Shown: positions 23,585-50,619 of the stretch, one piece after another
Numbering within the stretch: position 1 is the stretch's first letter
How the letters are laid out: each line of letters starts with the position of its first letter
Program-made: the position numbers and the translations under genes
DNA from: Diprion similis
Lineage: Eukaryota; Arthropoda; Insecta; Hymenoptera; Diprionidae
DNA length: 64,000 bases
Reading direction: 5' to 3'
Assembly (NCBI RefSeq): GCF_021155765.1
Contig: NC_060118.1
Coordinates: 4,402,001-4,466,000, forward strand
Notes under the pieces: generated by a model
The model's database searches: none
Told to the model about the DNA's origin: nothing
The model's input: only the letters and a program-made list of their open reading frames with translations

Positions 23585-24177
23585 AGTCTTTTATCAAAGT
23601 TACTAATTTCAGCTGCAATCTACGGAAAATTTCACTTTCGTTTAGGATTAAGTCCACCATCGAACACACGAGCCAAGATATGTGTGATAAAGACAGCCAA
23701 CCGTACGGACTTTTGTCGGTGAATAAAGTTCGTTTTACTGTATAGAGTTCAGTGGTTTTACTATGGACTTAGGCCGACGTCCCTTATTCCGGAACTCGTT
23801 CAGTACTGAAATCTAGTTGCTTTTCAGCACAGAGCGCCTTCCATCGACGCCTTCAAACCTTCCGATTCCCAGTGCTGTCAACGATCTTCTATCTTCTTTG
23901 TGCTGGCGAGTTCGTGGGTAGTTCTGCTTCTGTCCTAGGGAGTTTTTAGCACGAACAGCTAATTTCAGAACGCGCCCTAACTCTGCCTCCGTTCTAGGGA
24001 GCTTTTCACTGCTAGTTATTTTCGGAACGCACCATAGCGGACATAGCTAGCACTAGCAGTCTGTATTGTCTGTAGCTATCGTTACTCAACCCCAATCTTT
24101 GGAGTTCCTGTTTACAGTTTACTCCTTGGCCAATTTTCAAGTACGGAAACATTAATTTTTTATCATCAATCATAATA
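23585..24177. promoter_or_regulatory. Bidirectional intergenic region between KGD4 and DBR1
   Basis: Only 593 bp separate the two start codons of these divergent genes, so both promoters must lie here. I see no convincing TATA box. The centre is occupied by a dispersed repeat (23860-24035). The assignment rests on position alone. Confidence 0.55.
23860..24035 (+). repeat. Dispersed 'cctagggag' repeat, copy 2, in the KGD4-DBR1 intergenic region
   Basis: Full repeat (cccagtgctgtcaacgatct through aatttcagaacgcgcc), then a second partial unit (gttctagggagctttt through tttcggaacgcacc) about 70 bp downstream. It occupies most of the interval between the two divergent genes and so overlaps their likely promoter area. 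Confidence 0.6.
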
Positions 24178-30279: not shown

Positions 30280-30804
30280 TCAATTCCAGTCAGACCCGTT
30301 TGTCACCAATTTGTGAAAAGTGTTGTTGAATTTGTTTTCACTGAGAAAATCCATGATGTTGGCACATGCACTGAACTGAAGTCTCAAACAGGTGTTGGAA
30401 ATAGTATGTCGTGTTACAGGTGCGGAAAGTAGGCGATTTCCTACTAGTGTAAAGTTGGCAGTGTTCGCCGCAAAGGTGAGTGAGGTGAGTTGGCGGTATG
30501 AGCCGAAGGAGAGAGCTCCAATTGCACGAGTACTAGTGTGAACGCAGCACGAATACCAGATGTTGCAATTTTGTTCGTGAGATGGCAAATTGCAACTCCA
30601 ATTGCCTGTCTGTAAGTGCCAAGGTGGCTTGTTTCCACATTTAGACCAGGTATATGATACAATACCAGTTAACCGGTCAACTCTACACGGTACATTCTTG
30701 TGAAACATAATAGGTACATTGAGTTTGCGATGCAAGAAAAACGTATTTTGAAGAATTTTATGGACCGAATAGAATTTTTCATTTTCAAAAAAATTACGGT
30801 GCAC
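30280..30804 (-). CDS. Unrecognised 174-codon ORF
   Basis: Continuous frame from ATG 30804 to 30280, in a block with more GC than its surroundings. It is rich in Asn, Thr, Cys and Ser, with no motif I know, no signal peptide and no convincing helix pattern. It lies between the DBR1 and IWS1 3' ends. The plus strand of the block has repeat-like phrases (gtgagtgaggtgagt), so this may be a repeat rather than a gene. Confidence 0.2.
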   Translation of the reverse strand: MHRNFFENEKFYSVHKILQNTFFLHRKLNVPIMFHKNVPCRVDRLTGIVSYTWSKCGNKPPWHLQTGNWSCNLPSHEQNCNIWYSCCVHTSTRAIGALSFGSYRQLTSLTFAANTANFTLVGNRLLSAPVTRHTISNTCLRLQFSACANIMDFLSENKFNNTFHKLVTNGSDWN

Positions 30805-31726
30805 AGAGTTCAGTTCAAAGGCGGCTGCATTACTCGATTTAACTACAAGTTGAAATAGCAGATTATCAACTCGTAAAATTAAAGAGAAGGTAAATTATGC
30901 AACTCACTTCGAGGGCTCTGTTGGTGAAAATTTTAAATGATGGACTTTCAATACTTGATGATTTCTTCAATCTTCTGACGATGTCATTCTCCTCAAGGAT
31001 CAATTTTTCGAAATACTTTAGAGACTAAGACGATAAATCGAAAACACTTGACGTTTTTTTCCGGCAGAGAAAATAGGATTTGAATGGAGGTAGATGGTGT
31101 GAAAGAATGAAAATTAGCATTATTTTTTGGTTTTCTGACCAATGTAATGTAATTACATGGCGTTTATACATCATAAAACGAAATTTCGTTCAGTCCTGAA
31201 TCCACAGTTGCCAAGAATCTGAGAGCATATGGATCTGTAATACGATCTGTGAATACTGTCGAGTTTTCTACACTGTCTCGAAAGTATTTTTTCTTATTAT
31301 ATCTCGAAAATAATTATTCCGGATATGGTGACCAAACTACTTTTTCTTATTGTTCGCAATATGAAATTTCAGAAGCTGCTCCTCTTGAATGCTTGACTTT
31401 GGAAACATCATGAATTCGGAATATTTTCTTTTCAGAATCAACAAAATCAATTTTTCGTTCAATTGATTGCTTGGCTAAAGATCACTAGAAGATGAAATGT
31501 TTTCAAAACGATATTTAATCAATAATCCACCTTTAAATTACAATTTACCTATTACTACAAGACACTGGACATGCAGCAGAAAGTGATCACCACATCAGAA
31601 ATACATGCGGATTCGCGAAGATCAATGGCTAAAATGGTGCTCAATAAAAAAAATGACAAGACCAATGTTTGCAATTAGTTGTTAAGCATTCAAAATTATC
31701 TAGAATCTTAAGAACCTCAACTCAAT

Positions 31727-31887: not shown

Positions 31888-34800
31888 TCATAGAGACATT
31901 TTCCGCCCCTCAATGGATATGTCGACAGCTCGGCGTGCTTTTTTAAGCCTTTTCCCATCTACGTAATTCTTCATATGTCGTTCGAAACGATTCATTTGTT
32001 TTTTGGAAGTCTGAAAGTAGGTAAGCAAAAAAATTAGAATGAATAACCGAAAAACTAAACATTACAGTACAAAACTTAGTTGAATAAGCAACACTACCAA
32101 TATAATAATTAAACAATTTTAACTTACTCGGGTAATATCAACGTCAGATTTCCAGTCTGGACGTACAACGTAGTCTTTGTTTGATGGTACAGGAACTCGT
32201 GCTCTGCCAACCCAACCAGGATCTCCAGGCCTCAAAGGTCTGTGCGGTAAAAATAGTGTTTGACAAAAATTGTGTCGTTCAGATAGAAAAAAAAATCGGT
32301 TAATCCCCAAAATTATGGATCTTGAATTGTAAATGCATGATATCACGCATGCTTTCACTAAATTTCGTGTGTCTATAACTATGAAACTCATCTATTAGAA
32401 ACGTTCATTAGAGTAAAACATTATTTTGATTCCAAACCCTAATTTCCAGTTTCATGTGTATGTTATCGTTTCATTGACACATATTAAAATTTTTACAGCT
32501 ACATTTTTACATTTTTTTTTAAATCACAGCAACAGTAGTGTATGATTTTTGATTGAAGAATGAATATAAAAGAAAATAGTCTCACTTAGCATCTCCTTTG
32601 AGGGCTTTATTGATGTCTTGAGATTTCTGTGAGGATTCGCCGTCATCGTTTTTACGCCTTTTTTGTGGCGTTTGCTCCATATCTCGTTGCAGTCTTTCCT
32701 CTCTGGACATTGCTTTGAAATCGGCAGAAAGATTGAAAATTGGACGCGCCCATTCGTTAATTAATTTCCCCGCACGCTCTTTGTTTTCCTTAGTTTCTCT
32801 CGGGTGTTTGTATAGGTACATCACAGCCTTTCCTATGCCAGAATGCTTCAATGAAGATTGATCTATCCTTGGAAACTGGAAATTCAATTATTCATCAGAT
32901 AATTCTATCGATACATGTCACACAACTTTAGTTTTTTCTTCCTAACAACGAATTCTGAATGTATTTAATAACAAGTTACTTTATGTCACAGGAGTCGATT
33001 ATTGGACATTAATACCTTCATTTTCGCCGTTACTTTCGAGAAAATTATCTTTGATTGAATACCAAATCAAGGTGTGCCCAGTAATTACAAAAATTGATAA
33101 TTTTAGAATTTTGCTCATTTTGAACGATTATTTTACGATATTTAGACATGCATAAATGATGCAGATTCGTGCTCATAATCGTTCTAAATGGCAGGTTTTT
33201 AAGCATCTCAATCACTCAACACATTACTCATCTGTCCAACACATACGAACTACTTAGATGAATAATGTTCAAAGTGAAACAAAATTTTGATCCATCTTAA
33301 ATTGTTCACCGATTTTTAGGATATTTTACGTCATACTAGTTACAAATAAAGTCTGAAATATGTGTCAAGAGCATGTTTTTTCTAATCAAGTATGAAAATA
33401 TTTTTACGAAGTCTGGTTGAGCATCATTTACTTTCATGCCTCACTTAATGTTTTGTTACCATGTAGAATTGTTATTGCAGACGTCCGTTGTTTCCATGAC
33501 AATTCTGATTAACTTTTACTGCTGCAGTTTGTCATTGTTAGGAACTTCTGTTTCTTGTTGTTCATTTTTTCGCTGTAGTTTTGTTATTGAAAGAGATACA
33601 ATTTTGATGCAGAAAAAATTTGATTGGGCAGTTTGAATTTTTAGGTATGATTGCGAAAGGGAGTGCCTAGTAGATACGTCAAAGTGAATGTCAGTTGGCA
33701 AAAATATTATCTTATACATTTAGGGAAGGAAGCAGGCGGTTCTTGTCGAGCGCCGTTGTTTGCAGAATGAGTTGTGAGTTGAAGGTGCCAAAGGCCTCCA
33801 AACATTTTCCAACATTTATTTGTGTATGCGAGAGACTTTTATCTTGGATTCTAGAAGAACAACTTGACCAATTTCAATGGACTTTTGAATAAGAAGATGC
33901 AGAATCAAGTCATCAGTGCAGGTGATCCTGGGAACTTTTGCAGCTTATACTACGTTTGCTGATGAGATCAGAATTTTTTTGTATAATTGGGGAATTAAAT
34001 TCTCCAACTTGAGATTGGTTACTTGTAAAACAAGCCTTATACATGACCTTGCAAAACAACGCTTAAACCTGATAGAAGAGGTCAAATGCGGTCAACATGT
34101 TTTATTATTTTCAAAAATTCTACTCTTCAAGAAGCACATAAGTCTCGAAAAACAAAAAACTAGTATTAAACAAATAGAAATGAAGGCTTCTCGATATGAT
34201 TAATTGTTCTAAAGAACGATCTTTCTGAAGAATAATTCACATTTAATCAACACAGTGAAATTTATGTTATTTGCCATGAGATTTAACTTAGATCGTTACT
34301 ACGGATTTTTTAACATCTCTTGAAATGAGGAGGTGGAAGACATAGGCCACTGAGTATTGATACTGCAAAAGATAATCCGTGCATTCGATGGGTACCTAAT
34401 GTACTAATTTTCAATTTTTCGATTAACCTTTTTTTTTGCTGTCGAAATGATTTTTCATGACACGGACTCATTTGAGACTCACTGTCTTTATACAACTTTT
34501 GTTCATATGGGACAGGAGGATTTTTCAAACCATCAAATGCTTTTTCACCATGTTCAACCTTTGATATCAAGCTCAAAATCAGTTTTGCCGGGTCATGTAT
34601 TGGGATTATCTTCACACTCTGTGCACCGTTTATTCAGATAACATTAAAACATCAAAGCTTTAAAAATTTATTTTCTTATTCCGATAAAAAAAAAACATGA
34701 CAGTGTCTCGCGACGATGACACATCAAATTTCCTTTTCCATACAAAAATATTCATGATTTCCTGGGCACGTTTTAAATACTCTTGTTGAACAAACTCGCT

Positions 34801-37800
34801 TTCCTTATACAAATTACTTGAATTATTTGTACACATAATGTCTTCAATGTGAGTTGAACTATTCAACCTTCCTCCAATTTCAATTACTTAATATTTCAAT
34901 GAACATTTGTCATTCTTATTTGAAGAAATCACATCCTGATATATGTACTTACATAAAATATAATCACACGTAGCTGTTAGTTCAATTCAGGAACGTGTAT
35001 TGAACAGTGTGAATTAGCTATAGTACTGTTACTTGCAAAATTTTACACTCTCCTGTATTTTTAAAGAAGTAAAGTTTAATTCATATATACATTTGACTGT
35101 GCCAGAAAAATCAAGTTGTCAAATTTGAAGCTGTTCATTCAATACATTACAAAAGACACAAAGTAAAACTGATTCCCAAAGTTTCATTGAAATCCGTTGA
35201 TATGTAGGGATTACCAAACTCAAAATTTGTGTTTTTTGGATGATTTATGCCATTTTCGACATAAAATTTGTTGCGGAGCTTTACCACATTATTATAATAA
35301 TTTTTTGTTGAACTTTAGTGAAATACATAATATACCGTAGCTTAAAGCTGTTAAAGTGATATTCATTTAGTGTTATGATGGTTAAATGCAATTTCGAAAG
35401 GGTCAATTATCATTTCTTTAGAAACATGTTACTTTTTTTTAGTTATTTAACCGTATCCTATGGCGAGTTTTAGTTTAAGAATAACGTACTGTACATGGAA
35501 GAAAAGTAATTGATAACAAATTTATAAATTCAAACTATTGTTAACCAGGTTCACTGGTGGACCGAAAATCAAAGTTTTTTTCCAGAACTGGTAAGAGCGA
35601 ATAACTTTGTATTCAACATGAAACTTTATCACTGATGGTTTTTTTTTTTTTTTGGGTCGCCAATTACGAATCTAAGATGAAAATTCGAAATTTAAAATGG
35701 TCGATCCAATATGAAGTACCGAAATCCCGGAAGCCACTCAATTTGGAGGAAACTCGGTGTTCGGGGGGGTTACATAATTTTTAACCGTGGATTCTACGTG
35801 GAACATTACTAGTTTTGGCACAAAACGTTGATTTTGCGCCCACCAGTGAGCCTGGTTAACAACAGTTTAAATCTGGAAATTTTTCATCAATTATTATTTC
35901 TATTATTGTCAAACTGAAACTTGCCATAGGATATGGTTAAATATTGAAAAAATGTAACGTGTTTTTGAAGATACGAAAATCGACCCTTTTGAAATTACAT
36001 TTAACCATCACAATACTGAACGAATATCACTTCACAACCTTCAAAGTATTGAATATTATGTATTTTACTTAATTTTAACAAAACATTGTAATAATAATGT
36101 GGTGAAGCAGAGCAACAAATTTTCATGCTAAAAATGGCAATTATCATTCAAAAAACACATATTTTGAGTATCGCGACCCACAAATATCAACGCGATTTCA
36201 ATGAAACTTTGGGAATCGTTTTATTTTGTGTCTTCTATAACAAATCGAATGAGCAGCTTGAAATTCGACGAGTCGATTTTTTTGGCACAGTTTAAAATAC
36301 ATACTTCTTGTACGCACTTACTTTCTCCAGATGTTTTACATATTGATTAGAGTATTAGCCTTATAATGGTAGTAAAGAAAGAAATCTGAAATTTCTCGGG
36401 TCTGTGCCCGAATTCTCTAACATTTACCTGATTTTTCAGACTGAGTCAAATTTTTTTAATGTAGACAGCCTAAACAATCACATCCTAGTTCTATTGTTCG
36501 TTTAACTTCTGATTCGTGGGACATATAACATCATAAAAAATCAGTAAAAGTATCTGTGATTCTGAATAATATCGCTTTGAATGATTCAAATGCAATGTAA
36601 TCTTCGCTTTTCCGAGCAACTCATTGTAGTGGGCTGTATCATCCGAAATTTTTAGTTATGAAAGATTAATTATTTTCACTTACCTCCCACAACAATTTCA
36701 GTATGCTTTCACGGATCCTCAAAGATGGGAGTGAGCGGTCGGGCATTGGAGCAAGCCAATCGGTGAGAATGTTGAGTACATTGTGTTCGAGAAATGCCAA
36801 TTGTAAATCGTGTTTTTTCAGTTGAGACAGCACCTTCGGAAGCATTGCTATTTTATTTGTCGCAGGTTTGCCCTGCTGATTGAATTTCCTGTCCTCTTCC
36901 GAGGCGTTTCTCATGTCTGATAATAACTGGGCAATAATGTCATCATTGTCGTTGATGATCGTAATGTCTTTCCGTTTGCGGCGACGAGTCTGTTCCTCCT
37001 TTTTCCGTGCCAGCATGCGGTCGAAATCTGACATATGGTCGTCGCTGCAAATCAGAAATTTTACAAAATGAAATATAATTTGTTATTTGATTCTAACATC
37101 TATATCATATCTATTAGAATATTTTTGCTGTAGTAAATATTTGTAGGAGATAACAAGTTATAGAAACTTTTTCTAGGTTTGTCGTAAAGATAATTTTTTA
37201 TTTCTGGGGTAGTAAGTGATTACAGACTTTTAACTCTTGAAGGATCTGTAGAGGAAATAACAAATATTTGAAAGTGTTTTTAAACATTAGAAATTATTTT
37301 TCTTGCTCAGCTTTGTATTCTCTACTGGAAATTTTGAGGACTTTAGGGAGAATTATTTTTCTGTGCTACTTCCGTCAACAACTCAACTACTTTGTAAATT
37401 TTTATAAGCACTAGTGCTTAAAAGTCGACTTTTAAGCACTAGTGCCTATAACAACTACACAATATTTTCGTTTTTGAAAGGAGGTAGCACAGAAAATCCG
37501 AATCATGTGCGCATATAGGGACTTCTTGACTCGTGTGAGTTTTACACTCGTCAAGAAATTCCTATTTTGTGCGTATTTGTCACGAAACTAACTATCTGCC
37601 CATTTCAAGTTAGTTATATCGAGTACGTAAGAGAAATATACTTGGATTCGACTAAAACTGAGACGAAAATTCCCTGAGATTTCCAGGTATTTTAGATCCT
37701 CCAGGTCTATGGTCACCCCATTGAAACCACTTCAAGTTGCATTTGTAATAAACTACATAACTTACTTTTAACTAAACTTTTATAAATTAGAAGATGAGAA

Positions 37801-40800
37801 CTTATATTTTAAGGCAGATAATAAAACGAATTTCAAAGATCACGAATAATCTCTTCATATTTTTGAACATTGTGCACTTTCGGAATGCTATTTTTCTATT
37901 CATTTATAAGTACATCTAATGATAGAGATAAATTTTAAACACCTATTTTGACCAAGATAGTAAACACCGAAGAATTCATAAGCCGTATTTGTTTTGACTT
38001 TGTGCACGTGTTGGCGGTAAATTTATCAGTCATCAAAAATCTAACCAGTTTTTACATTATTAGGAAATTAATATACTTACGAATAACCACCAAATCTATG
38101 CAGCAATAGAATAAAAATAGAAACATCATTTCATTGTAGCGTACAAGTCGACGAAAGTCAGACTTGATCGTAGGGCTTCAGAGATTTGGTCAATTCTAAT
38201 ATGCGGTAATAATAATCGTAATTTCAGCATATCCATTTTACTTAATATGAGAACATTTGAAATTACTGAAGATAAAGCAAATAAAGTACAGATTTGAAGA
38301 GAAAAAAAGACTGCTGTAAAAAGATGTCTCTTGTGGCACTTCGTCATTCGCATAAATCTCCAACTGCACATTACGGAGACCATAAACCTTGGTTTTTTTT
38401 TAAATTGCTGAGTTTTTACTTTATTTAACAACATTCTCAATTAACTACGGATATTTTTTAATTCTAGTATTCTGATATTTAAGTGATCGCAAATCCTGAA
38501 CCAATTGAGTTGCCATTACTGCCAAGGTGTGTGAATGTTCATTGAATTTTTTTCAAAATAATTGATGATGGCTTATGGCTAAAAAAATAGTTTATGTTGA
38601 TTATTCAAATCAAAAATATGTTTTGAGTGACGTCAAAGTTGAAAGAAAGTATGGTACGACACTCAAACCCTAAGATGTTTTGTATTATACATTTTTTCTA
38701 TTCAAGTACGTAACGAATTATGAGGTATCGACCACAAATTATTATATCGAAATAAAAAACAATGGAGCTTTTTCAATTGTTCATATCAATGCAGTGCAAT
38801 AAAATAAATATCCAAAAAACACAATCAAATTTTTTTAATCATACTACACATTGAAAGACATCAGCAATTTTCAAAATGTCAAGATCTGATAACGTTACAG
38901 TTAGTAACATTAATGTAATTAGAAATTATAAAAAAAAATCACTATTCCATAATTATAGAATGACTTTGAAGTTAGTTTTTGAAATATGAGTGCGTTTTGT
39001 TCCGTTACAGTTTACGGCATTTGAAACAATCTTAAAATTGAAAAGTAACAATTTTGCCTAAACATGCATCGTTGCAATGACATTATTAACTTCCTATACC
39101 TCATAAAATCTGTGGGCGTGGTACTGAATGTTGAACTGAAATACTCAATGCATAAATGTGAATCCAAATCGCTGCAGATATGTTATTCGGTACGACCGAG
39201 CGTAAAACTATTTGCTGACAGGCTTATGCTGTGCTTTAATGCCATCAAGAATTGCCAATAAAATTTTCTATTAAAGCAATATTTTGAGCAAAATCCATTT
39301 CAAATCATGCAAACCGTTCTATTCAAAGTCACCGAATCGATTTTTGAATCATTCATTATATGTTCTTTTTCCAAGGAAGTAAGGAGAATTTTTACTGTCC
39401 GTCTTTTGTCATGTTCCTCATTTTTTTTTTTTTTTTTTTTTTTTTTTTGACACCAATTGACAGTGATTTAGGATAGATTCAGTCTTTGGTGTTTTTTTTT
39501 TCTATTTCACATGATGACAAAAATCCAAGCACAGGGAAATTTATGCCGGAATATTTATTTCTATAGCCAAATATATTCATATTGATTTAAAATCACATAC
39601 GCATACAATGGAATTTTACCTAGTATGCCATCATATCAGAGTGTTCATAAGTATGCTCTGTTGAATTTTAATTACACTACAGAAGTATATACTGAAGTTG
39701 CCTCCGTTCAACATTGGCATTATACTGCACCATTGCAAATCTCTAATCGTCAACTCATTTACTAGGCAAAAGATAATAAAATGAAATTGAAAATCAATTA
39801 AATTTACCTACTCAGTTTAGGCGTAGGATAGAAAGTGACATAATATCATAAATTACTTTAACTGAAAACACTAATCACTAGAATTTTGGCCCAACAGCCC
39901 CAAAATCATTGTAATTTTAATTCGATTTTATATTGTCACCCTGCAGACGGCACCTAAACCAAATAGGCAAACAATACGTAAGCACGTGTGGCTTTGAAAT
40001 ATTGATTACTCACTCTCCGCCACCAGGACGTATGCCATCATCAGAGTCCTCATTCTCAGCATCTTGGGACACCTGTTTGTCTTCTTCGTTTGGTTTTGCT
40101 TCCGTTTCTTCTTCCTGATCTTCGCCATGACCTTGCTCTCCTTCTTTATCTGATCCTTTTGCTTTTTTTGCAGTTGGGCCATCTTCCTCCTCATTTTCCG
40201 AATCAGACAGCTGATGCTTTGTTCTTTTCGTAGTCCTGATCCCATCACCCTCTTCTTCAGAGTCAGACAGTAGTTTGTTACGATTTTTGAGAACTTCTTT
40301 GGAATCCCTGCTTCGACTCCGAGACTTTCTAGACCCCGACACTGATCTCGATCTCGATCTTGATCCTGATTTTGACCTGGACCTTGATTTCGAACGCGAT
40401 CTGGATCCTACTCTTGAACCTGATCTTGCTCTTGATCTGGATCGCGATTTCGAACGCGACCGAGAACGTGACTGTGACGATCGTGCCCTTGATCCAGACC
40501 TGGACCTGGACCTGGACCTGGACCTGGACCTGGATCTGGACTTTGACCTGGACCTAGACCTTGACCTTGACCGTGACCTCGACCTTGCTTTGGATTGTAC
40601 AGACCGTGATCGCGATCGCGATCTTGATTTTCTAGAACCGGACCGTGATCTTGATCTGGATTTTTTAGATCTTGACTGTGATCTTGACCTTGATTTATTT
40701 GATGCTGATCGAGATCGAGATCGAGATCTAGATTTAGAGGCAGCTTTAGATCCTGAGCGAGATCTTGTTCGCCCATTTCTTGTCCTTGATCGAGAATCTC

Positions 40801-43800
40801 TCTGGGAACGGGACAGCGATGTCGTAGACTTCGGACTGTTCGACCTAGACCTTGACCTGGATCGTGATGTCCTCGATCCAGACCTCGACCGCGATCTGGA
40901 ACGGGACCCTTTTCTGGATCCAGATGGTGAACAAGAAGCTCTTCTGGAGCCAGACGCAGATCTGGATCTAGAGTCTCGTTTAGCCTTCACATTTTCTGAT
41001 GGAGATCTTGATCTCGACAGCCTTTGTTCTGCAGGGCTGGCTGGAGATCCTTCCCTGGATCTAACAGGGGAGAGTGAAGTTTTTTTAGATCCAGACATAG
41101 ACCTGGATCTTGATCGAGAAGTAGATTTTTTATCCTTAGAAGGTGACGTAGACTTTGACCGTGAACGTTTTCTTGAACCTGATGTGGGAGAAGCAGATTG
41201 CCGCGATCTGGACCTTGATCTAGACCGTGATCGTGATCTTGAGACTCCTTTCTCATCTCTTGATTTCGATCTAGACCTCGATCTACTTCTACCATCTTTG
41301 CTAGAACGAGACTTGGAACGAGACCTAGACGTTGTTCTGGGAGACAAAATCTTCGGGGAACCAGATTTTGATTTGGACCGTGATCTTCTTGTCACCACTG
41401 GTGATTTTGAACTTTTCCTTGAGCTAGAAGACGATCTGGAGCTTTTCCCTGAAGCAGTTGGTGATTGTAAATTTTTCTTTGACTTAGATTGTGAATCTTT
41501 CGTATCAGCTACTGATGTTTCTAATGACATGCTCCTGGACCTTGAACGAGATGCACTCTTTTTGGATGTAGACGGTGATCTGGATCGAATTTCATCCTGA
41601 ACATCTGCTTTTCGAGAACCTGGCGATAATGAACCATCTCGAAATGATGGTGTACGTGATTTAGAGCGGGTACGATGCTCTCTTGAATTACCAACTGGAA
41701 TAGGCGATGCTGATCGCGAATGTGTTGGCGAACCTTGATTTGACCTAAAACAGTTCACGTGTGTATTAGCATGAAGTATATTATGAACTGAAATATTTCA
41801 ATGAGGATGGATCATGAAATTGCATGATTTTTTAGAACTCTAAACAGTGATAATTACGAAAATGAATTGCACGAGAATCTAAGTTTAAGATTACAATTCC
41901 AATATTCATCTCATAGGATGGTTAAATTATCACTAAATTTTTCGATCTCTATTCCTGCATCCTGTTTTCAATTCTTTGATAGATCGTTACAATGTATTGG
42001 CCTAACATTGCTTTTATTCTCCAGATAAAACTTTATTGAATAAATTTTCAGACTTAGGTAAATATCTTATGACAATTCTATTAGTTGTATATTACACAAG
42101 CTAATGGACATAAATGAACTCAACAGATATAAACAGGATAAAATTTTGTATTATGACAAATCAACCATGACTTGCAATCTCAAAATTGACAAAAAAAACG
42201 TGATTCGAAACTTTCAAAGACTGAGAATTTGTAACAAGTAGAAACACACTCGTGCTCGTCACTATTTCGCACTCACAACTTATTCTTCCTCTCTTTTACC
42301 TGGATTCTTCTTCATTTCCCCAGACTAGACAATCCCTCGCTCATCCTTTGCATACTTGACTATTGCCTTTTGTTTACAAAACCCTGATCATATAATCTGC
42401 TTTCTGCACTCATTTAAGCTTCCTTCTGGTCACCCCAAGTCACTACCCATCTACCTTCTAAATTGTACACCTTGTCTATACCTCTCAATCTATGCACTTC
42501 TCTTTGCGCACTGTCTAATTACTCGTCACCACGCATACTTACATTTTAAAAACATTAGATCTTGACAATACTTTCAAGTTTTACAACTGGTACATATGAA
42601 CAACTGAAAATATTAGCAATATTTATTAAACTTCGTTGACTACAAAGTAAATGTAAAAAGAAAAAAAAGAAGTAAGCTTTATCTGTTACCATAGTCTTTC
42701 CCCTACTATGTAAAAATCAAGAAATCAGTGTATTTGTGAGCATCACGATGGACAAATCAAAAGGCACTGGCAGGTGTTGTCTGTGTGGTTCTCAATTTAA
42801 AGGAATGTAATATTTTTATATAACGTAAGCATGCCTGAATTATTTTTTCATGCTTGTGTTCTGTACTAATAACCAGTTCTGCGATAATACAAAGGAGAGC
42901 ACTGAAACGATCCGGTAATTAGAGTTCCTCAAATTAGAAAAAGAAGAAGAACACAATACAAATTATCACATAAAGTATCATGTGTATCGTGGAGGTAAGG
43001 TACTTTTACGTGTCGAATATTTGCAATGTTTGCCTTCGTCTCGTGCACGCGCGTTTTGCTTATGACTTATATTGCAAACTCACACTCGAGATAAAAATAC
43101 CAACTTTGCCACCTTGATGTATAATTGACTATTCTTTTACTGCGCAGGGTCTAAACACTAGTTTTTACCCCACAATTAATTCTACCGAAGTATCAAATTC
43201 TTAGCTCAAGTCTAAGAGGCAAATTACAGCATATGACTGTTAAAAGACTCAAGCTAAAAATGAGACTGAAGTTAGTAATGTTAACGTAACGATACATCAG
43301 AAGAAATAGTATATTGCGCAAGTAGGGTGGAAAGAAGGCCATTTCAAACATACGGTTTGGCTTCTTTTCTTCCCGTGGAATTATATGACATCTGTATGGA
43401 AATTCGAAAGTACTTATAATTATATTATAATGAATAAAAATGTGTAACAGTCATAAAGTTTCAGAAAGCATAAACAATAGTAATGAGTAATTTTTGGGTA
43501 ATTTTAGGATGACTTTTGAGGAATTGGCTTTTTAGAATTAGTGTATATTTTGTTTATAATGGTTTACTAAATTTCAGAAAGTCATAAAAGATGCGATTTT
43601 TCCTAAACATGCATCGTATGGTAACGTTACTAACTTCATCCTTATAGCTAAAAATGCTTTACTTTGGAAGAATTTTTAGTTCAGCTGAAAACCAACGTTC
43701 AGACCTGGTCTTAGCAAAAAAATAGAGAAAATTTCCGTAATCTAAAACAGTTTAATACGTATATTGTGATTGCTGAACCTTGGTTGCCTGGGAATAGCAT

Positions 43801-46800
43801 TGGATTAATATCCCAGTAAGTACCATGTTTAACGTACAGTAAAACCTAGTTTATTCGAAGTACTGTGAGAGCATATATTTTTACATACAGGGTCGTAAAT
43901 ATTGAATCCAAGAGTGAGACGGATGCAGCGGATTTTATGTGAAGCCCGCATAAATGGATCATTCACGTCTAAGGGTGGGGCGCCAGCCAATATTTCTAAT
44001 AAATGTCCCTGTATATTTGGAAGCGTAATATCTCATTAACAGATCGTTTTACGACAGTTCTTGCTTATTATCAGCGCATACACCACCGTAAATAGAGAGT
44101 GATTGTAAAATAAATTCCAATATAAACAATTCAAACATGCATACCGCAACCACACACTCTAGTAACATGCTCAGCATACTTTAAGTTAGGTTGTTTCTGT
44201 ATTTTGGATTTCCTCATCTTTTTGCACATCATACATCATTCACGACGGATAAAAACTTTTCAAATTTCTTAAGAGGGCCATTATCATGGTCTGCAGTATC
44301 AATTATTAACGACTACTATTTCAATGGCATCTTCTATTATAATCTACCAACCACATGCTCTTGCCTCATTCATATCATCCTTGACTTCCTTTAACATCAA
44401 TTAATGAACTTCATCGATCTTGACTAATAATTAGAAAATGGATAGAGAACTTAGTTTAGTGGGAAAGCTGGCATACCTTTCTGGTGAACTTTTTCGACTA
44501 CCAGAGTTTGAGCGAGATCTATTTCTTATAACTGGGTCAACAGATCCATGAGACACTTCAGACTGTGGCGAACCGGATCTGGATTTAGCGGCTGAAGGGG
44601 AGCGAGACCGTGACGGAGATCTGGATGTTTGTGAACGAGATCGAGATCCATTCATGTCGTCATTGGAACTACTTTTACTCTCTGCAAATAAAAAACTTAA
44701 TGAATATCTCCATATTTTTTCAAGTTAGTTGGTTTCATCAATATGCATTTTAATGGCCTTCCGGCTTTAGGATAAAATAATCACATCGCTAATTCCATAG
44801 TCAGGATTAAGAAAAAAGCTACAATTTTTGTAGTAATCTGTTATAAGAAAATCTATTTTTAAAACTATCAGAGCCTGCACTGAAAGAAATGATGCAAAAT
44901 TTGTTTGATCACTTATCACGTGGGATTTAAGAGCTAATTGAAAACTCATTTTGTAGGTTTCATGAACTATAGAATTCTTTGAATATTGCCGATATAGGCC
45001 ATGTAGGCAATATTTTGTTTTCGAAAACAGGTATCACGAGAACGAGGCATTTCATTTTCTTTTACTTCACTTTAGAAACTTTAGAACTCTACGAGGTGTC
45101 GCAGGAAATGGTTGTCGACTTGCCATTTAGTGAAAACGATGTGCTAGAAAACGATGTACACACGTACTTTGGCACCTGATAAAGTTAATTGAATCGATCA
45201 GACAATTACGAAATTCCAAAAAAATTCCAAGCAGGTATATCTGAGTAAACGGAAAGTGATTATTTTTCGCAATGTTCTTAATAAAAGGGCATAACCGACA
45301 GTACTTATGACCTTTGATCGTGAATTGATCTGTTTTTCAATTTCACCATTTGTTAATGTATCTTCATGTTTTTTATGTAAATACAAGGGGATAATCAAAG
45401 AATGTAAGGCTGCCCAAAAAAGTATTGTGATAGTTGGCCCCATCAGAAAGCCTATTAGAATCTATTTTTGCTAAATTTCGCATCATGCATTTGACTGGTG
45501 GCAGAAAAATATACTACACTTGACGGATGGCATTGAATCAAAAAAGTCTTTTTTCAACAGATATTTCACTTGGTATTAACTCAATGTACATAAACAAGAG
45601 TCGAATCACTTGCAAAAAATTGTCTGTCTTTATGTGTTCATATATTTTCGCTAAATCGATCACCTGTTAACTAAGATACAACGCCATATAGCTTCGTCAC
45701 ACCTATACTTTGGATCCCATTACTTCTACACCGAAGTAATCATGGTAAATAAATTCCAGTAGACAATGTAATACATTGCTAAATATTAGTTAACATTCGT
45801 TATAAGAGCGAAGAAAACTGTGGAAAACTTCAATATTACGCCTGAACATGCCCCATTTTAGCTTTGAAAATGTTTATAATAATAATATGGGTACTGGCTA
45901 GGCTAAAGCGCGTATGGGTGGGTTCTAGTACAGGTGTCACATAAAAACGATCACGCTGTGTTGGATCGAGCGCCTGCCGCACTAGTCAGCCAATGATTCG
46001 GATCGATGCACCGATGTATGCTGGTTTGTAAATGCTAAATCGACTGTATATGAGATACATGCGAGTGTCAGTTTATTCTGCTGTTTAAGTCCCTGCTGAA
46101 TTCAATAAAGTAAGGTTGGATTTTGCAACATCTATGAATTCTCGTAACAATCGAAAACATGAAGTCTATTCAATCCGCGAATCCATCCGTTTCATCGTCG
46201 GAGCTAAATTAGTGGCATATCTGCATGGGATAAATGGACATTTAATTTTTTTGAATAGTTGGTTTCACTGTGTTTGATCAGCATACATATACACGTATCT
46301 TCCTTGTTTATTAATAAAAGATACAAAAATTTCATGATTTGTTTATCTTGAAGGTTTGATTTGTGTTTAAGTTCTTAAGATTCTGTTACCAGTATAATAT
46401 ATGTCTGCATTCTGGTTACTAATAAATGCTATGAAATCTAATGTAATGTTTATTCTATACTCTTGAAACTATATTTCAAATGCCTCCAATGGTTACACCC
46501 TATGTAATGTCTGTAGATTTTATACTCAACAGACTGCTCAGAAAAACTGCAACGCCTGACTGAGAATTTGAGGTCTAGCCCACTTCATTTCATAGTCTCG
46601 CATGCTGCCACGGCGCTACTATGGTTAGATACTAGCAGCTTAACACAATGCATTTGAACATGCATAATATTATTAAATATAGGATTAAAATTGATGAATT
46701 TTGAGGAAAAAAAAATGATTATATCAAAACACATGAACTGTTTTTCAGTGTGTCTATATAGAAAATCCTAACTATAGAATGAATATCCAGTAATTGTTAG

Positions 46801-47025
46801 AAATTTTTATTTACTTTTAACATTTTCAAAGTAACTTGCAAATTCCTGTATAATTCCCAGCTTTCGTGAATTTTCCAAACACTTGAGACCCTGGTAACCG
46901 TTACTTTGCATTTGCTGGACTACGTCACTGAGGGCAACCACTGCTTGAGTTTGATTCAAATACCTGATTTCTAAACCTGTTTTTATCATTTTTGAATCTG
47001 AATTTACTTCCTGATCACGAGACAT
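31888..47025 (-). CDS. IWS1: IWS1, Spt6-interacting transcription elongation factor with a large RS domain (7 exons)
   Basis: Minus-strand exons 47025-46815, 44681-44477, 41744-40014, 37044-36684, 32875-32586, 32239-32128 and 32010-31888; GT/AG, frame continuous, about 1010 aa. IWS1 binds Spt6 and travels with RNA polymerase II, linking elongation to mRNA export and histone methylation. The conserved core is unmistakable: SDDGIRPGG joined to [16 protein letters not shown]; the helical TFIIS-N-like domain ([13 protein letters not shown], then [20 protein letters not shown], then [20 protein letters not shown]); [40 protein letters not shown]; and the C-terminal [15 protein letters not shown] with [10 protein letters not shown]-terminal to the core are typical SDSE-type acidic patches ([19 protein letters not shown]). 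Before those, unusually, come about 480 residues of Arg-Ser repeats. The first exon is less certain (separate entry). Introns are large and rich in foldback elements. Confidence 0.9.
32240..32585 (-). other. IWS1 intron 5 (short)
   Basis: A 346-base intron between exons 5 and 6. Donor gtgaga, acceptor tttttaccgcacag. Nothing else was seen in it. Confidence 0.6.
34310..34866 (-). CDS. Possible nested gene or retro-fragment in IWS1 intron 4
   Basis: Two protein-like minus-strand segments. The first (about 34866-34695) gives [20 protein letters not shown], then [20 protein letters not shown], then FDVSSSRDT, followed by a weak GTCATG donor. The second (about 34636-34310), after acceptor aacggtgcacag, gives [20 protein letters not shown], then [20 protein letters not shown], and ends [11 protein letters not shown]. 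The phases agree (0/0). I recognise no family and there is no evident promoter. It could be extra IWS1 sequence, a nested gene, or a decayed insertion. Confidence 0.3.
35098..36298. mobile_element. Foldback element in IWS1 intron 4 (1.2 kb)
   Basis: Palindrome centred at about 35698 with arms of about 570 bp. On the left are tgccagaaaaatcaagttg, cccaaagtttcattgaaatc, cattttcgacataaaatttg and taaccaggttcactggtg. Their inverse partners on the right are caccagtgagcctggttaac, caaattttcatgctaaaaatg, gatttcaatgaaactttggg and tcgatttttttggcaca. The tip (35640-35760) carries the 'gatccaatatgaag' module seen in the 57 kb element. It is transcribed with IWS1 and would form a very long hairpin. Confidence 0.8.
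37350..37492. mobile_element. Small palindromic MITE with a perfect 38-bp core palindrome
   Basis: Outer arms ttctgtgctacttcc and ggaggtagcacagaa; core 37408-37445 is a perfect palindrome made of two inverted gcactagtgc decamers around ttaaaagtcgacttttaa. Next to it a second hairpin lies at 37500-37570 (cttgactcgtgtgag and acactcgtcaag). Confidence 0.6.
38899..39093. mobile_element. MITE, family T, copy 1
   Basis: Left gttagtaacattaatgtaa; right ttgcaatgacattattaac with the preceding cctaaacatgcatcgt. The same terminal phrases occur at 43251-43645 and, nested, at 11842-12020. Confidence 0.5.
39421..39448 (+). repeat. Poly(T) run of 28
   Basis: Twenty-eight consecutive T in IWS1 intron 3, which is poly(A) on the IWS1 sense strand. 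It may be the tail of a retroposed sequence, but I see no recognisable body next to it. Confidence 0.9.
40014..41744 (-). CDS. IWS1: IWS1 exon 3: 577-codon RS-repeat exon
   Basis: A single exon that enters in phase 2 (completing Arg 139) and leaves in phase 2. About 480 of its codons are Ser-Arg, Ser-Lys or short SxSRS units, with pure (SR)n runs near 40480-40590 and 40600-40770. It ends with acidic SDSE patches and [10 protein letters not shown]. At DNA level, CCTGGA-type hexamers are tandemly repeated (about 40495-40560 on the plus strand). The composition is that of SR-family splicing factors. The IWS1 proteins I remember have Ser/Asp/Glu repeats here instead. The antisense frame is open for 441 codons purely because of this codon pattern. 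Confidence 0.88.
42250..42560 (+). repeat. Dispersed repeat, family Q, copy 2
   Basis: Matches the minus strand of 29600-30010: caaaaccctgatcata, ctgcactcatttaagcttcc, caccccaagtcactacc. The plus ORF 42356-42565 lies in it and is not a gene candidate. Confidence 0.6.
42748..42810 (+). pseudogene. Short Cys-rich fragment, possibly zinc-finger related
   Basis: ATG at 42748 opens [20 protein letters not shown] and then stops, or splices at a weak gtaata. The CCLCG spacing recalls the start of ZAD-type zinc-finger proteins. A possible second piece at about 42883 reads [12 protein letters not shown]. It is antisense to IWS1, inside its intron. This is too little to call a gene. Confidence 0.15.
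43251..43645. mobile_element. MITE, family T, copy 2 (about 395 bp)
   Basis: Left agctaaaaatgagactgaag, then gttagtaatgttaacgtaac; right gtaacgttactaacttcatc, then cttatagct. Good inverted termini of about 45 bp, no ORF. Confidence 0.65.
44682..46814 (-). other. IWS1 intron 1 (2.1 kb), with an LTR-like segment
   Basis: Present only if exon 1 is correctly joined. It holds a GC-richer stretch (about 45900-46150) that ends in an AATAAAG motif and ctcgtaaca, resembling the 3' half of a solo LTR (see findings). The ORFs at 44767-44949, 44979-45179 and 45198-45443 look like chance. Confidence 0.4.
46815..47025 (-). CDS. Candidate first exon of IWS1, or a separate 72-aa gene
   Basis: ATG at 47025 opens a 70-codon helical segment ([20 protein letters not shown], then [20 protein letters not shown], then [10 protein letters not shown]). 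A GTAAAT donor at 46814 leaves phase 1, which fits the acceptor phase of the exon at 44681 (completing Lys, then SKSSSND). If unspliced, the frame ends two codons later at TAA. I do not know this domain from IWS1 homologs. It reads as a compact three-helix fold and is clearly protein-like. A chance phase match is one in three, so the link to IWS1 is an inference. Confidence 0.55.
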
Positions 47026-48800
47026 GACTTTCTCTGTGCGCTCAGATTTATATTTACAGTAACAAGGTAGTAAATAACAAGGCCATTCGATGGTGATATT
47101 ATTGCTAAATAAATGTGAAAATTAGAATACAATACGGAACTAAAAGCAGTGTGACTAAATTCGGTGCTGTGAATGGTGTGTGGAATCATAGGTTAGGTCT
47201 ACATAAAGTTCGCTATATAAACTTACCCTCGAGTTCCATTTTTAACTATGCTTCCCTGTAGGTCAGGTAAGAAAAATAGATATGCGATGAGTGGAAAATC
47301 TTCAATTATCAATCATATCTCATCACTATTTTGCATACCTGCAAAGATTAGAAAATGCCAAATACACACACAAATGTCGGTTAACTGAATCTAATTGGGA
47401 CGGCGATGACATCGACGCTTCGACCATCGATGTTTTGTTTGCAGGAACATCGATTTTCTTTAAAGTCGATACATTAGTCGAATAACGTAAGATCGATAGA
47501 AGATATTGAACTATCGACATTGTCGAGTCGGGAGTAAATTAAATTTCTGTACCAACATCTGTCGGCAATTAGCTATCTATATCATTTTCGCATGTATGAT
47601 GTATACGTGAATAAGTTTAATAATAAATATGCATTTTCTACTCAATTTCTCGCTGTTGATTATACATATATTCAATTAATTTAATCTATATTAAACTATT
47701 ATATTTTATACTTCTGTTTAACAATTACGATATTTTAACACTTGAAATTTTCACGCTCATTTTTCTTTTTAGAATTGTAGCTGCTTTAAAAATGTTAGCG
47801 ATTGTTTTTACCATCAGTGATGTTAACAATCGCTGCGATGTTTCGAAGCTTCTACAGGAAAATAGATAGTTCGATGGTATAAAAGAATTGAAACAGTCGA
47901 TGGTACGATGTTTTTTACTAACATCCACGGACGTAAGAAATATATTTATAACCCTTAGAGCATGTAGTACGGACCTAATTAAAATTTTGTATTACATTTT
48001 GAAGAGTGTATGTTTCCTTCTTTATAGTAAATATTATATATGGCAATTACGTATATAATTATTATTGTATGTCGTATACAATATTAAAAAGCATGTATTT
48101 CGTGTCTCGTTGCAAGTAATCTGTATAATATCAAATATACATGAGAACCTGATTCCAAAGGGTATGTCGGTAAAAATTGACGCTCGAACCATTTGATTTG
48201 TCACTTTCTATTTACCTACTTTCTATTTTAAACCGACCAATCACATTTTATGAGAGAGAGAGAGAAAGGTACTCATTCTACGAAATCTATCCTTTGTATG
48301 TAAACAGCATAGTCAACGTACACAGTGTCTAACTAGTGCTTTTCAACACGACAAAAACAATTTTAGCGACACAGCTTTCGAAGTGTCTATGTTGACGTAG
48401 GATTGTCAATTTCTGTGGTGATTTCTAGGGTTCTCTTTATTTATTATTCTTATTACGATTTATTCATTTTCCTTTATTTTTCCTACCATTAGTGTCTTTT
48501 TAATTTTTAGTAAATTGTCGTTTTATAGGGATTCTAAGTGTTAAATTTACCCCACAGTGCACTCTGGCGGCTATGTTTGGAAGTATGCTGCATTCCAACG
48601 ATTCCAACAACACCCGGGCACTGTGCGTAATGTGTTTGGCTGTGTTGCTCTGTGTCAGCTTGAAGGAAAGCCCTCATTGTCACAAGATTCGTATAGAACG
48701 AACCTCGAATTTTTTTTTCAAATCGAAAAAAAGTTAGCTGGGAGCTTTAAGTCATAAATGAATATTACTCGACATATACAAGAACCTAATTGTAGATGAG
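47026..48800. other. IWS1 5' flank and AT-rich intergenic sequence
   Basis: The first 250 bases should hold the IWS1 promoter; no TATA box stands out. A short gagagagagaga run lies at about 48253. The small ORFs (47291-47485, 47725-47928, 48557-48757) have no recognisable content. Confidence 0.35.
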
Positions 48801-48805
48801 CCTAA

Positions 48806-48955
48806 GGCTAGTTTTACATAGGCGCGGTGGCTTGGGGCGCAGTTGAGCGGTAACTAATCAAAATGCGTAAAATATACTGTTCACTAGATTTCATGTATGT
48901 TTATTGGTTACCGCTCAACCGTGCTCCAAGCTGTCGCACCTATGTAAATTCAGCC
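48806..48955. mobile_element. Harbinger-like MITE with TAA target duplication (150 bp)
   Basis: The left end GGCTAGTTTTACATAGGCGC and the inverse of the right end, GGCTGAATTTACATAGGTGC, match at 16 of 20 positions. The pairing continues with gttgagcggtaac and gttaccgctcaac. TAA flanks both sides (48803-48805, 48956-48958), the 3-bp duplication expected of the PIF/Harbinger superfamily. Confidence 0.75.
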
Positions 48956-49094
48956 TAAATAGTCTGCCCCACTACCGAAAATTGAGTGCAGTCACGGGAC
49001 CTGTATGCAAGGTCGCTACTTCAACTAAAAATTATAACGCTTTGTATGAGCAAGCATAGGCTTCTTTTCCACCTCTTTTTCTGACATCGTGTAT

Positions 49095-49212
49095 GCAGAG
49101 TGCGTTCCGAAATTAGCTGGTAGCCCTAAAAACTCCCTAGAGCAATGGCAAAGCTATTTAGAAACTCGAAAGCGTAAAAAAAATAAAAGATTATTGAAGG
49201 CACTGCGAGCTA
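49095..49212 (-). repeat. Dispersed 'cctagggag' repeat, copy 3 (inverted)
   Basis: The minus strand reads cgcagtgccttcaataatct, then tgctctagggagtttttagg, then agctaatttcggaacgcact. It is the same order as at 20880 and 23860. Confidence 0.55.
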
Positions 49213-49259
49213 ATATCAAAAAGCACTCCTAATAATGAGCATAGGGAGATTGTAGGGAT

Positions 49260-49850
49260 ATCTTAATGCACAACTAGGGACATTTTAGAGTAACACATGG
49301 CAACACTGCTGCTGAGTGAAGGGGTCGAGAATCGCGTGCCCGGCCGCCCATTGTTATCCTTGTTGAACGTAATGGCCGCCAGTGAGTTTGTTGACGCTCT
49401 TTCGTGGTTCCGTTTGGTACGCCTTAACGAATCCGCGCGATAGATCAATAGAGCCTCCAATTTTCGAACGGATAATAAGGGTTAGGGTTTGTAGTTGGCG
49501 GTCTGAGTGTGAGATAGTTTAATTCCAAATTACATGAAGGCGTAATGCTGTGAAACGCAAGGCCAATGCTCGCTTGGTATCAGAGACGTCTGCCGGACTC
49601 AAACATTCTCTGACAAGTGCTTGGCTCCAGCGCCTTAGCTGAGGGGTTACAAACGATCACCGGTACCGTATTTTTCACATGAAACCTTCCAAACTGTCGG
49701 CTGGAAGCTAATCCCCTGGCAAAGATAAGTGTTTGAGGAGATTTCTTGGTCGACTTCATGGTCAACCTATGCCTGGGAATTTGGGATGCTGGCCACCTTG
49801 ATGCTCGTTGGCCGTTGGCCTGTAGCCTTTTGTTAACGGCCCAGCAGGTG
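49260..49850. other. GC-richer unexplained block
   Basis: About 590 bases with visibly more G+C and CpG than the flanks. It holds two minus-strand ORFs (49460-49263 and 49765-49580), neither matching a family I know. It contains gggttagggttt at about 49480. I compared it by eye with remembered 18S and 28S rRNA landmarks and found none. It could be a decayed mobile element or a promoter/5'UTR island. Confidence 0.3.
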
Positions 49851-50107
49851 CATATTTGCTAATTTTTCATTTTTAATGTGATAACGAGTCTACTGGAATG
49901 CAGATTATGGATACAGACTCAAAAAATCATCGAGAATAACGGAGTTGAAGTATAAACTATAACAAGTGAGTATTAGAAATGTTGCATTTCTACATTATCT
50001 GTTTGGGTTTAAAAATTCTTTTACTATTCAATTCCTTCGGCATTTGAGTGAGGTTTCTCATCAAATATCTCTCAAGAATTTTCTTATTTCACTATAATGA
50101 TTACACA

Positions 50108-50173
50108 TATATACATATGTGTGTGTGTGTGCATGTGTGCATGTGTGCACGCGCGCGCGCGTGTGTGTGTGTA
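50108..50173 (+). repeat. TG/CG dinucleotide microsatellite
   Basis: Alternating purine-pyrimidine tract: (tg)n, catgtgtgcatgtgtgc, then cgcgcgcgcgcg and (tg)n again. Such tracts favour left-handed Z-DNA. Confidence 0.9.
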
Positions 50174-50354
50174 TTTTAGATCTAGCGTGTCCGTTATTCT
50201 GGTAATTTTGGAATTTTTCTATTACCCTTAAATATATGTCTTAATTACAGAAAAAAATCCCCTGCAAGTATAGAAATTTTCGGATAGTATTAACACGTGA
50301 GCGATTGAAATTTTAGATGTAAAATATATTAAAATTTGCCATTTTTTTCAACTG

Positions 50355-50375
50355 TTTTTTTTTTTTTTTTTTTTT
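50355..50375 (+). repeat. Poly(T) run of 21 followed by C-rich tract
   Basis: Twenty-one T, then ctccccccccac: a pyrimidine-only stretch of about 32 bases. Confidence 0.85.
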
Positions 50376-50619
50376 CTCCCCCCCACATCATCAACTAAAA
50401 TAGACTGATAAATTCAATATGATGCTTCAGAACGATGTTCATACTTCCAACGTAACAAAGAAGCAGAAAAAAAATAATACATTTAATCTCAAAACTCACG
50501 TATACTTCACAAAACCATAATTTTTATAGTTTAATTCAGTGTCGTTATCTATAAAATATGTGCGCATCCTAAAGTTTTTTTCTTCCTGCGTCTAGTTGAA
50601 AGTAAAAACATTTTTATCA

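Follow-up and report, generated by a model that had tools for sequence, protein, structure and literature searches.

In the window (the 64,000-nucleotide stretch of the Diprion similis contig NC_060118.1 analysed here), a predicted gene encodes what is almost certainly an IWS1 protein with a genuine RS domain. The RS-rich tract extends over residues 17–552 (536 residues) and is followed, in the same reading frame, by the conserved IWS1 core. The explanation that we slightly favour is of an IWS1/Spn1 protein whose disordered N-terminal arm became a long RS domain serving SR-protein recruitment at Pol II.

The predicted IWS1 gene

The gene was predicted on the reverse strand (47239..31888) as seven exons encoding 944 residues without an internal stop (Table 1). 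All six introns are GT-AG, and the joined exons comprise 945 codons, of which the last is the sole stop. Exon 3 is open from end to end and is flanked by an AG acceptor (ctgttttag/GTC) and a GT donor (AGA/gtgagt). The initial annotation had placed the RS tract in frame with the IWS1 core, and this was borne out by the single open frame and by the matching phases (2 and 2) at the junctions 44477/41744 and 40014/37044. Since exon 3 is in phase 2 at both ends and its length is a multiple of three (1731 nt = 3 × 577), it could be skipped in frame. The least certain piece of the gene model is exon 1, a short exon that probably supplies the start codon. By eye, an in-frame TAG lies two codons upstream of its ATG, and ctacag/GGAAG at about 47255 resembles a 5′UTR acceptor.

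Table 1. Coordinates and content of the predicted IWS1 exons and of the two parts of exon 3
Feature	Position	Strand	Residues and content
Exon 1, coding part	47227..47239	-	MELE and first base of codon 5; donor AGG/gtaagt
Exon 2	44477..44681	-	aa 5-73; RS-rich sequence begins at aa 17 (44646)
Exon 3	40014..41744	-	aa 73-650; RS domain and acidic IWS1 stretch
RS-rich part of exon 3	40307..41744	-	aa 73-552
Acidic SDSE region of exon 3	40014..40306	-	aa 553-650; aligns to IWS1 from residue 432
Exon 4	36684..37044	-	aa 650-770; counterpart of the Pol II RPB5 helix, and initial portion of the HEAT/TND core
Exon 5	32586..32875	-	aa 771-867; remaining TND core (Pfam PF08711), and counterpart of the DSIF-NGN helix
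Exon between exons 5 and 7	32128..32239	-	
Exon 7	31888..32010	-	aa 905-944 with the stop codon; counterpart of the RPB1 jaw/cleft tail

Conservation of the IWS1 core and tail

The non-RS remainder of the protein was compared with the 819-residue IWS1 chain of 9mlc, which is taken to be human as its length and numbering fit the available text of PMC13175633, the database listing naming no organism. The match was strong (E 1.5e-97), with 153 of 297 aligned positions identical, in agreement with the earlier identification of the protein as IWS1; all ten of the PDB matches listed were named IWS1 or Spt6-interacting protein. Using the human IWS1 regions of PMC13175633 as boundaries, the identities were 80/149 for HEAT/TND, 16/29 for the NGN helix, 8/11 for both the RPB2 lobe loop and the ELOF1 belt, 7/15 for the RPB5 helix and 13/33 for the jaw/cleft tail. 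When the whole protein was searched against Pfam at E values up to 0.1, Med26/TND (PF08711) was the only domain obtained (E 1.1e-12), and no RNA-binding domain was found. The protein has the features of the IWS1/Spn1 family, that is, a TFIIS-N/Med26-type helical core with a HEAT repeat and, as judged from the sequence, the C-terminal Pol II/ELOF1/DSIF motifs. Its conservation suggests that it may also bind Spt6.

Five TND matches were obtained in the 269-Mb assembly. One is the IWS1 gene, and the other four frames we take to be TFIIS, Elongin A, Med26 and PNUTS. In this assembly, three of the five contig starts examined are filled with TTAGG repeats, as expected for an arthropod. Pattern searches for relatives of the IWS1 core gave 6 matches in viral contigs and 16 in prokaryote contigs, none of which was confirmed; these collections have no bearing on insects.

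Extent, composition and age of the RS domain

The RS-rich tract is 38% Ser and 24% Arg (204 Ser, 128 Arg and 43 Lys), and 141 serines of the arm adjoin an arginine. It contains 203 RS/SR dipeptides, compared with a mean of 97.5 (sd 7.4, maximum 123) in 2000 shuffles of the same residues. About 480 RS residues in one exon had been described by the initial annotation. That length is correct for the RS-rich tract of exon 3, but exon 2 (aa 17–72) is RS-rich too, and the strict RS core is shorter. Under the composition rule for SR-related proteins (S+R ≥70% and S and R ≥20% apiece within 20 residues), taken from the available text of PMC9479744 and applied with our own script rather than the authors' program, five segments totalling 354 residues were found in the whole protein, the longest being aa 331–556. 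The protein is not a classical SR protein, for which an RRM and an RS domain are required, as no RRM was detected in Pfam at E values up to 0.1. Residues 1–552 gave no match to solved structures, a search made uninformative by low complexity.

Codon positions 1, 2 and 3 of the RS array agreed at 0.461, 0.570 and 0.342 two codons apart, against a background at 60–200 codons of 0.287, 0.352 and 0.303, the comparison being made within one sequence whose base composition also influences the values. Neighbouring serines used the same codon at a frequency of 0.315 (null 0.243; reached in 3.3% of 2000 shuffles) and neighbouring arginines at 0.369 (null 0.249; reached in 1.7% of 2000 shuffles). Since the protein repeat is kept although synonymous codon choice in adjacent repeats is almost random, the array appears old and maintained at the protein level. 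Some DNA slippage is visible in it, with TRF units of 6 and 33 bases.

The human-type FxGF/TIM, which binds LEDGF and other TND proteins, was not found in the N-terminal arm, although diverged TIMs could remain. Residues 1–656 hold one Phe, and no Phe is present among the residues that align with the FTGF stretch of human IWS1. A search for F.GF in a missed exon, covering the three coding-strand frames of 50500..31888 with introns included, was negative. Human IWS1 (PDB 9mlc, 9egx) and the D. similis protein have in common the HEAT/TND core, the C-terminal Pol II-binding motifs, a long N-terminal arm and SDSE acidic patches adjoining the core. The human arm, however, is made of SDSENEE repeats with FxGF/TIM, whereas the D. 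similis arm consists of RS-rich sequence.

Proposed role of the RS arm

In human, the conserved core and the C-terminal tail tether IWS1 to Spt6, DSIF, ELOF1 and elongating Pol II, and the conservation described above suggests that they may do so here. The RS arm, which is strongly basic before phosphorylation, would be a substrate of SR-protein kinases and would keep SR proteins, U1-70K or U2AF close to the nascent RNA, such that splicing factors would ride with the polymerase. The arm that it occupies is the one lacking a detected FxGF/TIM, the motif that in human recruits LEDGF, TFIIS and Elongin A, and their recruitment may be affected.

Very long RS tracts are also present in SRRM1/SRRM2 and SON, which are speckle proteins and, unlike D. 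similis IWS1, have no elongation-factor core. CDK12/CDK13 are, like D. similis IWS1, transcription-elongation proteins bearing RS domains, but are kinases of an unrelated fold. CDK12, a CTD kinase, offers a precedent: nine SRSF proteins and SRRM1/2 co-precipitate with it, and recruitment of SR proteins to the elongation complex through RS contacts was suggested by the authors of that work (PMC4340420). For IWS1 itself, links to splicing or export have been described in other organisms (PMC3335468, PMC7263676, PMC12368070). Other observations speak against a handle. Rapid loss of human IWS1 led to more efficient splicing, as fits a slower Pol II (PMC12368070); the splicing pattern of the reporter was altered only slightly in the Arabidopsis iws1 mutants of a splicing screen (PMC7263676); and deletion of the human N-terminus cut the stimulation of elongation only slightly (PMC13175633), so the N-terminal arm may matter little. 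We give the RS arm about an even chance of working as an SR-protein handle at Pol II.

Alternative explanations

We weighed whether the RS tract and the core belong together at all. The initial annotation had regarded the acidic SDSE patches within the RS exon as IWS1 sequence and the exon as no chimeric misassembly, and both views are supported by the alignment: the acidic end of exon 3 matches the 819-residue IWS1 chain, starting at chain residue 432 and continuing up to and across 40014/37044, which argues against a misassembled chimera. With the acidic tail, 6emr was also matched (E 3.1e-6), an entry listed as PC4/SFRS1-interacting protein (LEDGF) and IWS1. An assembly error as the source of the fusion was rated low. 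A run-together of an SR-type gene (exons 1–3) and an IWS1 gene (exon 4 onward) is hardly credible given this alignment, the single open frame with agreeing splice phases, and the lack of an RRM or other Pfam domain upstream of the core (E up to 0.1), even though an intron of 2969 bases (40013..37045) parts the RS tract from the core of this predicted gene. The RS tract might instead be a by-product of hexanucleotide slippage and have no specific role in what would be a disordered linker, as its 6-base periodicity and the slight excess of identical codons between neighbouring units would allow. We regard this as improbable, since third codon positions are near background while second positions retain the period, every synonymous codon is used (all six for Ser and all six for Arg over aa 21–560), and stops are absent from the RS frame across aa 17–552 but number 6 and 33 in the other two frames of that strand.

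Nuclear import, speckle targeting or solubility may also depend on RS tracts. The arm could act mainly in RNA/DNA contact, speckle localisation or transportin-3 import and not in SR-protein recruitment, which we consider rather unlikely. Nuclear import through RS repeats needs far fewer repeats than are present here, and such roles are compatible with an SR-protein handle. A net charge of about +151 across aa 17–552 before phosphorylation would favour them, and RS repeats are known nuclear-import signals (PMC12075686). A more radical proposal is that IWS1 was rewired in this lineage, with a giant RS domain replacing the lost TIMs to LEDGF, TFIIS and Elongin A and turning an elongation scaffold into a polymerase-borne SR-protein platform switched by inclusion of the skippable exon 3; this is a long shot. 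When the TIMs of human IWS1 are mutated, a subset of genes shows impaired pause release (PMC12368070).

Novelty and implications

No description of an RS domain in IWS1 was found in the available text of the literature searched on IWS1 with RS wording or on insect IWS1. D. similis IWS1 fits the composition definition of SR-related proteins of Cascarina and Ross 2022 (PMC9479744), but has no RRM; the main text of that paper does not name IWS1. A survey of elongation factors in 227 eukaryote proteomes (PMC13289920) bears neither way on the distribution, as its main text contains none of the words 'arginine', 'serine', 'insect' or 'arthropod'. It is fairly probable that insect or arthropod IWS1 ordinarily has an RS-rich N-terminus, a trait unremarked in the literature searched, and that this gene is unremarkable. 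The nearly saturated synonymous sites give the repeat an old look, the low-complexity arms of orthologues are seldom described, and the trait may already stand in the supplementary tables of PMC9479744. RS-bearing IWS1 is possibly common among insects, and we would expect RS-like N-termini in other insect IWS1 proteins. This would bear on novelty and is compatible with the SR-handle mechanism.

IWS1 sits on elongating Pol II and is linked to splicing and export. An IWS1 that carries its own RS domain would provide a natural experiment on whether elongation factors recruit SR proteins, a question that could then be addressed by the removal of a single exon. Loss of the TIMs, if real, would mark this part of the network as replaceable.

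Structure of the IWS1 gene

The IWS1 gene is predicted on the minus strand, from 47239 to 31888, with seven coding exons. All six introns of the model are bounded by GT...AG, and the joined frame runs for 945 codons, of which only the last is a stop. The Arg-Ser (RS) repeat lies largely in exon 3, for which consistent frame and splice phases on both sides had been claimed; the phase 2 at both of its ends and the intact joined frame bear this out. Exon 1 is the weakest part of the prediction. As the length of exon 3 is divisible by three and the phase is the same at either side, removing the exon in silico keeps the frame, giving 368 codons including the stop, or 367 residues. Skipping of this exon could leave the core joined to exon 2 and its short RS stretch, with the RS domain lost and no frameshift.

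Two further open frames overlap the gene. One of 72 aa (46807-47025, minus strand) lies just inside intron 1 on the same strand as IWS1; comparison with Pfam, NCBIfam and PDB gave sub-threshold matches or none, and it may represent a small nested gene or an alternative first exon. The other, Asp-Leu-rich, is open for 461 codons on the strand opposite the RS exon (40215-41600, plus strand), and is most likely the mirror of the RS repeat, not a gene.

Coordinates of the IWS1 exons discussed and of neighbouring loci
Feature	Position	Strand	Remarks
IWS1 exon 1		-	short; probably supplies start codon; in-frame stop two codons before start
IWS1 exon 2	44681..44477	-	also Arg-Ser-rich
IWS1 exon 3	41744..40014	-	1731 bases; phase 2 at entry and exit
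Open frame, 204 codons, downstream of IWS1	30283-30894	-	LisH-like match, E 0.00059, below Pfam cut-off
DBR1-like gene (lariat debranching enzyme)	24076-26910	+	PF05011, lariat-debranching C-terminal domain, E 2.3e-39 in 26023-26910
Frame with MAETSEFGPRRTIFILAIVAGCFAVLWPRIFYPM	19888-20163	-	resembles the N-terminus of RIC3

The DBR1-like gene adjoins IWS1 downstream and is convergent with it. Its upstream frames gave sub-threshold matches or none, its full extent being inferred, and its open frame had no PDB match at 0.001. The position of this other RNA-processing gene beside IWS1 is probably coincidence. The RIC3-like frame had no match in Pfam or NCBIfam, and Rfam none at gathering scores in the whole window.

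Identity of the protein and continuity with the RS exon

The sequence from the exon-3/exon-4 junction to the C-terminal end matched 9mlc, an IWS1 chain of 819 residues, with E 1.5e-97 and 153 identities in 297 positions. The PDB listing names no organism for 9mlc; we take it as human on the ground that it agrees in length and residue numbering with the protein of PMC13175633. In the motifs described there as gripping the elongation complex, identities were 7/15 (RPB5 helix), 16/29 (NGN helix), 8/11 (RPB2 lobe loop), 8/11 (ELOF1 belt) and 13/33 (RPB1 jaw and cleft). When the query began at aa 553, within the RS exon, the alignment started at its 8th residue (aa 560), equivalent to IWS1 position 432, and continued over the splice junction; the same query matched 6emr, a chain listed as LEDGF (PC4 and SFRS1-interacting protein) and IWS1, with E 3.1e-6. 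Judged by sequence, the gene product is IWS1, and the end of the RS exon is IWS1 sequence too. Since that end itself aligns to IWS1 across the junction, a chimera of two genes is very unlikely, as the initial annotation had held.

A search for the TND family (the TFIIS-N/Med26-type helical core) in the 269-Mb assembly gave at least five matches, a lower bound as for any large family in such a search. IWS1 was present as one copy among the matches found; the other four found look, from their sequences, like TFIIS, Elongin A, Med26 and PNUTS. The presumed PNUTS-like protein (L005, G000:C4) has a long Ser/Lys/His-rich arm in a single open frame of 725 codons.

Extent and age of the RS repeat

Residues 17-552 (536 residues) contain 204 Ser and 128 Arg, with 203 RS or SR dipeptides, compared with a mean of 97.5 and a maximum of 123 in 2000 shuffles of the same residues. 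With our own script for the composition rule published in PMC9479744, five segments qualified, the longest of 226 residues (aa 331-556). The 'about 480 residues' of RS initially ascribed to exon 3 thus hold for the RS-rich tract of that exon, while the strict count over the whole protein is 354.

In exon 3, agreement two codons apart was 57% at second codon positions (35% at 60-200 codons) and 34% at third positions (30% at 60-200 codons). Neighbouring serines shared a codon in 31.5% of cases, against 24.3% expected with codons dealt randomly among serines, and neighbouring arginines in 36.9% against 24.9%; 3.3% (Ser) and 1.7% (Arg) of 2000 shuffles reached the observed agreement. This test is made within a single sequence and depends on base composition. 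Slight slippage is visible in the array, yet synonymous sites are nearly randomised while the second-position period is kept, which argues against a fresh microsatellite. The array looks old, and its codon pattern is most simply read as the result of selection on the protein.

Possible function of the RS arm

The core and tail would seat IWS1 on Spt6, DSIF, ELOF1 and Pol II, as others have shown for human IWS1 and as conservation suggests here. The RS arm, with a net charge of about +151 when unphosphorylated and 141 serines adjoining arginine, may be phosphorylated by SR-protein kinases, and may bind SR proteins or U1-70K/U2AF, holding them beside nascent RNA. A direct precedent is CDK12, whose purification co-recovered SRRM1/2 and nine SRSF proteins, recruitment via RS contacts being suggested by the authors (PMC4340420). 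Against this mechanism, acute loss of human IWS1 is reported to make splicing more efficient (PMC12368070), a reporter showed only a slight change of splicing pattern in Arabidopsis iws1 mutants (PMC7263676), and elongation in vitro was stimulated almost as well without the human N-terminus (PMC13175633).

The human N-terminal arm carries motifs binding TFIIS, Elongin A and LEDGF (PMC13175633); three such TIMs are described (PMC12368070), the LEDGF-binding type being FxGF (PMC6877644). Here, Trp and Tyr are both missing from aa 1-656, which contain a single Phe (107), and F.GF is absent from every coding-strand frame from 50500 to 31888. The residues opposite the human FTGF stretch include no Phe, in an acidic low-complexity alignment that is loose. 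A diverged TIM in the N-terminal arm is possible.

The literature excerpts searched on IWS1 with RS wording and on insect IWS1 described no RS domain in this protein. IWS1 is not named in the main text of an all-proteome RS survey (PMC9479744), nor are insects mentioned in the main text of an elongation-factor survey (PMC13289920). The RS-bearing IWS1 is a genuine variant of an already known protein, one not remarked on in the literature searched, and is expected to be shared by other insects.
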